DNA of 64,000 bases from positions 1 to 64,000 of the forward strand of contig QCGA01000005.1 of assembly GCA_003280095.1 (NCBI GenBank). Direction: 5' to 3'. This DNA is from Prochlorococcus sp. AG-363-O16. GTDB lineage: Bacteria; Cyanobacteriota; Cyanobacteriia; PCC-6307; Cyanobiaceae. Below, one piece after another: positions 48,519 through 50,596 of the stretch (position 1 is the stretch's first letter; each line of letters begins with the position of its first letter). The notes below the pieces were generated by a model, which searched no databases, was not told the origin of the DNA, and saw only the letters and a list, made by a program, of their open reading frames with translations. The position numbers were made by a program, and so were the translations under genes.

Positions 48519-49106
48519 ATGAAGCTACTAATCCATGGTCGCAATCTGGACCTTACTCCTGCTCTCCGTGAATACACACAATCAAAATTGGAGCGGGCCA
48601 TCCAACATTATGAGGACTTTGTTAAAGAAGCGGATGTCCATCTGTCAGTCGCAAAAAACCATCGTGTACACCAACAAACAGCAGAGGTCACCATATTTGC
48701 CAACGGCACAGTAATACGAGCACAAGAACGCAGTGAGAACCTATACGCAAGTATTGATTTAGTCGCAAGCAAATTAAGCAGGCAACTAAGACGTTTCAAG
48801 GAAAAGACCACCGATCACCACCACAGCTCAGGGCATAGAGCTTCAATTACACCATCAACTGAATCTGTTGTAGATGACAACTCAATCAATGTCTCTCTAC
48901 TGGAAGGGAAGAACGCAACCCTCCCCAATCCGGGAATACGACGAAAGTATTTCCCGATGAATCCAATGAAAATTGACGAGGCATTACATCAGTTAGAACT
49001 TATAGATCATGATTTCTATCTTTTCTGCGAAGAAGAGAGTGGGGAATTACAGGTTTTATACAAAAGAAATCATGGCGGTTATGGAATCATTCAAGCCAAA
49101 AGATAA
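48519..49106 (+). CDS. lrtA: Long-form ribosome hibernation promoting factor (LrtA)
   Basis: A 195-residue protein: the HPF/YfiA domain (1-100; [39 protein letters not shown]) that binds 30S, a His/Ser-rich linker, and the C-terminal dimerisation domain ([33 protein letters not shown]). It makes inactive 100S ribosome dimers. The cyanobacterial gene is known as light-repressed lrtA. It is the first gene of a run with deoC and recO, 9 bp before deoC. Confidence 0.95.
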
Positions 49107-49115
49107 AAGATAGGA

Positions 49116-49805
49116 ATGGACACCAAAAAGAATAGTCTTCAAAAGCGTCTACCTGCCTTAGAAAAACTTATTAATCTCGCATTACTCGGCCCAAATTTAG
49201 ATGAAAATGAACTAAGAAAAGCCTGTGAATTATCTGTTTATTTCTCTTTTGCAGGTTTGTGTACAAACCTCACTCAAGTACCGGCCGCTCGTAAATGTCT
49301 TGAAAACAATGGAAAAACCAAATTAATTGCTGCAATCTCATTCCCTTTTGGTGCAATACCAACAGAATTAAAAGTAGCTGAAACTGAATGGGCGGCTGCT
49401 CACGGTGCAGAAAGAATTGACCTAGTACCAAACTTCTACGATCTTCAAAATGGAAACACAACAAGGTTCGGAGAGGAGGTGTCAAGGATTTGTAGTATCG
49501 GCCTCCCTGTAAGACTGATACTCAACATGTCCTTTCTAAAAGATGAACATCTTAAAACTGCAGTAGAAACCGCAATTGAGGCAGGAGTTCAGAGTCTTCA
49601 GAATGGAAATGGTTTTGGTCCTGGAGTAAATCCCTCTGATATTCGTCAACTTTCCCAATTAGTTCGCGGGCGATGCGGTATTCAAGCTGTAGGAGGAATA
49701 AACACCTTGGCGCAAGCAATAGAACTAATTGATGCGGGAGCCTCAACTATTGGAACAAGTAAAGGAGAATTAATAATGAATGAGTTGCGCCATTATTTGA
49801 AATGA
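49116..49805 (+). CDS. deoC: DeoC-family protein lacking aldolase lysines
   Basis: A 229-residue (beta/alpha)8 protein of the deoxyribose-phosphate aldolase family, recognisable by GLCTNLTQVPAA, ERIDLVPNF, NGFGPGVNPSDI and GIQAVGGINTLAQA. In active enzymes the Schiff-base Lys lies in FVKTSTGFG. The corresponding stretch here is SLQNGNGFG, with Gln162. The second Lys (VKASGGIRT) is Gln190. Asp102 is kept. It is therefore doubtful that it is an aldolase, whatever name the family gives it. It overlaps recO by four bases. Confidence 0.88.
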   Translation: MDTKKNSLQKRLPALEKLINLALLGPNLDENELRKACELSVYFSFAGLCTNLTQVPAARKCLENNGKTKLIAAISFPFGAIPTELKVAETEWAAAHGAERIDLVPNFYDLQNGNTTRFGEEVSRICSIGLPVRLILNMSFLKDEHLKTAVETAIEAGVQSLQNGNGFGPGVNPSDIRQLSQLVRGRCGIQAVGGINTLAQAIELIDAGASTIGTSKGELIMNELRHYLK

Positions 49806-50596
49806 GCGGAACGAGATCTTTAGAAGGGCTTTCCCTAAAGGTAGGGACCTTAGGAGAGAATGATCGACTACTAACTCTTTTAAGCGAAGAAGAAGGTTTG
49901 ACCCGAATAGCAGTACCAGGTGCGCGGAAACCACGCAGCAGTCTGGCGGCCGCGATTCCATTAACTCTAATGAACTTAGAAATTGTCGAGAAGAAAAGTC
50001 TCCCTAGGGTTAGGCATTTAAAAGTCTTAAAAAGCTTCAACGGAATTGGTCAAACACTAGAAACACTTGCTGGTGCTCAAGCCTTAACGGAATTAGGCTT
50101 GCTTTTAGTCGCTGAAGGAGATCCACTACCAGGCCTTCTGAAAACATTGCTCATGCATCTTGAAAGGCTAGATGCCTTCAGCAAAAACTCTATAGAGAAT
50201 GAAACCAACACAGTTGCAACTACTATTCAAGGCTGTATCCATATGCTGGCAATAGGTGGGTATGGACTTCCCCTACAAGTCTGTTCCCACAGCGGTAAAG
50301 CACTTGAGCCACCCTTAGGTCAATGGGACTGGAGATGTAGCTTAATAGCATCTGAAGGATTTGCGATCGGTTCTTTCTCAGGAGCATCGATACAACTAAA
50401 TCCTTCAGAATTGGCCCTTCTACAAAGACTAACTCGAGCTTCCTTACCTATTGATCGTCAACATAAATTGATTGGCCCAAAAGAAGTTTGGATTAAACTT
50501 CTTGCTGTGGTTGAATGTTGGATAAATACTAATTTACCAAGAAAGATTCACTCATTAACAATTTTGCATCAGGCAATAACTCAAAAAAAAGGATGA
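49802..50596 (+). CDS. recO: DNA repair protein RecO
   Basis: A 264-residue RecF-pathway mediator. An N-terminal OB fold (LEGLSLKVGTLGENDRLLTLL, then GLTRIAVPGARKPRSSLAAA) precedes a helical C-terminal domain. The zinc-finger Cys found in many RecO proteins are not obvious. It loads RecA onto SSB-coated DNA. The ATG overlaps the deoC stop, and one base separates it from the MFS gene. Confidence 0.9.
   Translation: MSGTRSLEGLSLKVGTLGENDRLLTLLSEEEGLTRIAVPGARKPRSSLAAAIPLTLMNLEIVEKKSLPRVRHLKVLKSFNGIGQTLETLAGAQALTELGLLLVAEGDPLPGLLKTLLMHLERLDAFSKNSIENETNTVATTIQGCIHMLAIGGYGLPLQVCSHSGKALEPPLGQWDWRCSLIASEGFAIGSFSGASIQLNPSELALLQRLTRASLPIDRQHKLIGPKEVWIKLLAVVECWINTNLPRKIHSLTILHQAITQKKG

Follow-up and report, generated by a model that had tools for sequence, protein, structure and literature searches.

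The window, that is, the whole stretch of 64,000 nucleotides from Prochlorococcus sp. AG-363-O16 that was analysed, carries a DeoC-family gene between the genes for a ribosome hibernation factor and RecO, with lipB on the other side of the neighbourhood (Pfam). The genes and the informative positions of the DeoC protein are the following:

48519 to 49106, + strand: lrtA/hpf, S30AE ribosome hibernation factor (Pfam), ends 9 bases before the deoC start codon
49116 to 49805, + strand: DeoC-family TIM-barrel protein without the Schiff-base lysine, 229 aa, ATG start, intact open reading frame
49173 to 49175, + strand: Asn20, Asp or Glu in lysine-bearing relatives (alignment)
49419 to 49421, + strand: Asp102, codon GAC, aspartate of the catalytic (proton) relay, retained (alignment)
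49512 to 49514, + strand: Arg133, strand-5 Lys in lysine-bearing relatives (alignment)
49524 to 49526, + strand: Asn137, strand-5 Glu in lysine-bearing relatives (alignment)
49599 to 49601, + strand: Gln162, codon CAG, at the Schiff-base Lys, E. coli Lys167 (alignments)
49683 to 49685, + strand: Gln190, codon CAA, at the second active-site Lys, E. coli Lys201 (alignments); unusual even within its clade
49692 to 49697, + strand: Gly193-Gly194, part of the phosphate cradle, kept (coordinates computed from the translation)
49752 to 49760, + strand: Gly213-Thr214-Ser215, part of the phosphate cradle, kept (coordinates computed from the translation)
49802 to 50596, + strand: recO (Pfam), 4-base ATGA overlap with the deoC stop codon

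The original prediction had described this gene as a DeoC homologue without the catalytic lysines, with Asp102 and the fold motifs present, packed closely between lrtA and recO, and the features above agree with it. According to passages of PMC8403123, Lys167 is the Schiff-base nucleophile in the E. coli aldolase (DERA), Asp102 and Lys201 assist proton transfer, and the phosphate ligands include Gly205 and Ser238. The window protein matches solved deoxyribose-phosphate aldolases over residues 15-224 (phmmer, E 2e-30), with VQSLQNGNGFG aligned on ADFVKTSTGFS and GIQAVGG on GVKASGG, and glutamine thus stands opposite lysine at both positions. No lysine was found at the Schiff-base position in this alignment with characterised enzymes. 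Lysine-bearing members of the taxonomic family of the window genome (below, the family) have FLKTGSGFGPP opposite SLQNGNGFGPG of the window protein without any gap, and therefore the placement of Gln162 is unambiguous and an alignment error can be ruled out as the reason why the lysine is absent. In addition to the residues first listed, the window protein has lost the aspartate of the N-terminal ID motif (Asn20) and the strand-5 Lys and Glu (Arg133 and Asn137). Structure prediction from a two-sequence alignment, consisting of the window protein and one protein from locus L031, gave a mean pLDDT of 54.8, too low for the model to be of use.

The protein scores 130.1 bits against the NCBIfam model TIGR00126 (deoC; cut-off 117.3), which was passed by eight of the ten proteins tested, including six of the eight lysine-less ones; L010 (111.7) and L077 of genus g18 (56.2) fall below. 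Since the cut-off of this equivalog is passed, the automatic name becomes deoxyribose-phosphate aldolase. The concern that the usual annotation would mislead metabolic models is supported by this, and a Prochlorococcus pathway analysis files deoC under 'sugar degradation' (P 3.0E-03) (PMC5974335). In the same passages deoC is enriched in the dark in both axenic cultures and co-cultures while hpf is not enriched in the co-cultures, so that hitch-hiking on dark-induced hpf/lrtA is not a full explanation of the enrichment (PMC5974335). Pfam DeoC/LacD (PF01791) gave no match to the window protein over its curated cut-off, but the lysine-bearing family member L050 is likewise missed, and the miss alone therefore says little. 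Dihydroorotate dehydrogenase (PF01180) was rejected as a candidate, with 21.1 bits against a cut-off of 27 and a match to residues 175-213 only.

Homologues were matched in 283 of 300 genomes of the family and in 285 of 291 genomes of the phylum sample. From 240 loci 238 were matched and 219 gave aligned rows, after 15 rows with an identical C-terminal stretch and four short ones (L211, L239, L132 and L133) had been dropped. Among the 84 distinct family rows, which represent best hits and genus representatives with no random draw, the Schiff-base lysine is absent from 60 (59 with Gln and one, L032, with Ile). The idea that the loss is common to all relatives thus holds for a large clade, but the other 24 rows keep the lysine. 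The division follows genera, as 34 of the 53 family genera lack the lysine, 19 have it and none is mixed; the locus L031, from Prochlorococcus sp. AG-463-P14, is of the Gln type. Two lysine-bearing family members, L067 and L071, have lost only the second lysine (Glu and Ser, respectively). In the other families of the class (130 rows) the Schiff-base lysine is present in 122 rows and absent from eight, and all five rows from deeper-branching members of the phylum have all three catalytic residues. The lysine is replaced by Met in all five rows of genus g106 (L098, L225, L228, L233 and L234), in which the other catalytic residues are kept, and by Gln in both rows of genus g70, where the second lysine is His and Asp102 is Asn. 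In f6 one of 14 rows is lysine-less (L101, from one species of genus g98), with Glu at the Schiff-base position and Ala at Asp102; its close relative L178 keeps both residues, and the loss in L101 is apparently recent. A search for related loci found one relative among genome contigs and none among viral contigs. Only distant DeoC matches (below 60% identity, 17 records) were found in phage records, and no cyanophage was among the best 15 of these 17.

In the family the loss of the Schiff-base lysine does not come alone. Strand-5 Lys133 and Glu137 are each found in none of the 60 lysine-less rows and in all 24 lysine-bearing ones; among the 122 lysine-bearing rows from outside the family, Lys133 is present in 120 and Glu137 in all, and the three losses outside the family retain both residues (8/8 rows). 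At position 20, the aspartate of the ID motif, His is found in 40 and Asp in eight of the 60 lysine-less family rows. All 60 have Asp or Glu at position 102 and an intact phosphate cradle (GG..GT). The double loss of lysines first described is true of the window protein, but the second lysine (position 190) is normally retained, being kept in 57 of the 60 rows; the exceptions are the window protein (Gln), L010 (Gln) and L015 (Thr). In principle, this second lysine could replace the Schiff-base lysine outside the window species, which is a point against loss of the aldolase reaction. That these proteins are still aldolases, in which the equivalent of Lys201 forms the Schiff base, is nevertheless highly improbable, as three lysine-less proteins do not have it, strand-5 Lys and Glu and in most cases the N-terminal Asp are absent, and the alignment showed no other position near the centre at which a lysine has become conserved.

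New residues have become nearly invariant in the lysine-less core (55 rows), with frequencies of 0.98 for Gln162, 0.96 for Asn165 and 0.95 for Gln21. Together with the conservation of positions 102 and 190 in the lysine-less rows, this is what would be expected if the remodelled centre (Gln162, Asn165, His or Asn at 20, Asp or Asn at 137, the retained Asp102 and usually Lys190) had become a new enzyme running a Schiff-base-free reaction on a phosphorylated sugar, for example isomerisation, epimerisation or dehydration. We regard this as unlikely, because Lys190 is also gone in the window protein, L032 has Ile at position 162 and the gene context showed no pathway partner. The lysine-less DeoC of genus g18 (L077-L080 and L113; small genomes, L077 with 31% GC) is very divergent, with the motif FQFGDGFG and Cys49 replaced by Ser.

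A maximum-likelihood tree was built from 100 of the 219 rows with the eight trait columns left out. In this tree the lysine loss in the family has one origin (SH-aLRT 99; support elsewhere is modest), four changes of the Schiff-base lysine are required over the tree as a whole, and a branch of length 4.04 leads to the g18 rows. The median dN/dS (NG86) is 0.139 among the lysine-less family proteins (range 0.03-0.24, 30 pairs), 0.068 among the other lysine-less rows (11 pairs; 0.06-0.09 among g106 rows), 0.114 among lysine-bearing outgroups (426 pairs) and 0.308 among lysine-bearing family members (65 pairs), where GC-rich loci may bias the method; the GC content of one such locus, L034, is 0.70. 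Within the lysine-less clade, pairs of sequences have a median identity of 0.48 for deoC, 0.576 for recO and 0.728 for lrtA, and within the lysine-bearing relatives of 0.669, 0.609 and 0.665, respectively. The faster evolution of deoC than of its neighbours is thus seen in the lysine-less clade only and suggests partly relaxed constraint, while the dN/dS of about 0.14 and the conserved lrtA-deoC-recO order argue against decay. From the dN/dS values and the identities, DeoC is therefore maintained, although it is less constrained than the neighbouring genes.

The pathway that normally supplies deoxyribose 5-phosphate was not seen in these bacteria, whether the lysine is present or absent, since neither deoB (TIGR01696) nor deoA, pyrimidine phosphorylase (TIGR02644), was found over the cut-off in any of 97 genomes of the class, the window genome included, while each was over the cut-off in six of 14 controls. 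Partial matches below the cut-off were found among the 97 genomes (12 for deoB and 70 for deoA), and we take these weak matches to be other phosphatases and TrpD-like proteins. With two exceptions, the 283 matching family genomes have one DeoC homologue each, so the homologue search gives no second aldolase copy; likewise, no second, lysine-bearing copy was seen in the window genome, which is 64% complete.

Such a genomic setting would suit a relic, an aldolase that is not needed without a deoxynucleoside pathway and is slowly decaying, its frame kept mainly by translational coupling to recO. The ATGA overlap with recO, the faster evolution of deoC in the lysine-less clade and the broken copies L211 and L239 fit this, as does the report, in the passages of PMC5464585, that DERA is conserved but non-essential in data from Synechococcus elongatus PCC 7942. 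Still, we consider a relic improbable, given the low dN/dS throughout the 30 lysine-less pairs, full-length rows in 34 lysine-less genera, a cradle that is fixed in all 60 rows and the new conserved residues in the lysine-less core. In the broken copies, in-frame stops number four in L211 and one in L239, and L211 retains recO downstream.

At the level of sequence, the residue losses, their single origin in the family, the retention of the cradle, purifying selection and the gene order are demonstrated. The natural reading of the sequence is that class I aldolase chemistry would have been lost, and the protein is probably, in our judgement, a maintained pseudo-aldolase that would bind a sugar phosphate. 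In the ancestor of the marine picocyanobacterial clade the DeoC barrel lost its charged centre (the Schiff-base lysine, both charged strand-5 residues and, as a rule, the N-terminal Asp) in apparently one concerted change, with the phosphate-holding loops kept. With the charged centre gone, such a protein would not be expected to cleave deoxyribose 5-phosphate via a lysine Schiff base, and most likely it would act by binding, that is, by sensing, sequestering or allosteric contact with a partner. We infer absence of aldolase activity, ligand binding and a non-catalytic role. The original prediction of a functional protein in another role accords, as to function, with purifying selection and the kept gene order, whereas the other role is inferred. 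As the lysine is lost and the protein is still preserved by selection, it probably has another job, and metabolic models based on its name are likely to be wrong.

Compared with DERA (EC 4.1.2.4, TIGR00126), the window protein is alike in its full-length homology, Asp102, phosphate cradle and single copy, but both active-site lysines are Gln, the strand-5 Lys and Glu and the N-terminal Asp are replaced, and PF01791 misses it. Pseudoenzymes are catalytically dead members of enzyme families, and the window protein resembles them in keeping the fold and the ligand-site motifs while the catalytic residue is lost; it differs in that it is so far without a known binding partner or regulated target.

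In the neighbourhood of the gene, lrtA is found in all 60 lysine-less and 23 of the 24 lysine-bearing family rows, and in one of 130 rows from other families. recO lies directly downstream (same strand, within 400 bases) in 59 of the 60 lysine-less and 23 of the 24 lysine-bearing family rows, and outside the family in 82 of the 122 lysine-bearing and all eight lysine-less rows. The deoC-recO pair therefore predates the family, while the link to lrtA does not. A tie of DeoC to RecO or to hibernating ribosomes is only suggested by this position. Somewhat speculatively, cyanobacterial DeoC could have had a second, non-aldolase function tied to recO before the lysine losses, which four independent losses then unmasked; the recO adjacency of the lysine-less rows in and outside the family is the basis for this thought. 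It is equally tentative that this second function is all that maintains the lysine-less protein, which might for example be a sensor or sink of deoxyribose phosphates set free during DNA repair.

One of the losses outside the family lies in a common laboratory lineage. In genus g70, genome G335 is S. elongatus PCC 11801, as two of its contigs are 100% identical to named plasmid records along the whole of the 20,000 and 15,453 bases that were compared. KaiA of the other genome, G564, shares 283 of 284 residues with solved KaiA, and we take the matched entries to be those of S. elongatus PCC 7942. The S. elongatus DeoC (L099 and L238) retains none of the three catalytic residues, with Gln in place of Lys167, His in place of Lys201 and Asn in place of Asp102. 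It is like the window clade in having Gln at the Schiff-base Lys and in adjoining recO, but differs in its independent loss, in the His and Asn that stand at the other two catalytic positions, and in keeping the strand-5 Lys and Glu. As S. elongatus is easy to transform, the role of a catalytically dead DeoC is directly testable there. The wider pattern is one clade's concerted loss together with three independent losses, and in the literature searched, judged from titles, abstract openings and passages, no description of the missing lysine was found. In cyanobacteria DeoC is regarded as one of the conserved metabolic enzymes, and since the catalytic lysine is missing in the picocyanobacterial clade and in S. 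elongatus, statements on essentiality, flux and transcript pathways that are based on its name need revision. Against the TIGR00126 aldolase equivalog, the S. elongatus protein scores 212.7 bits.
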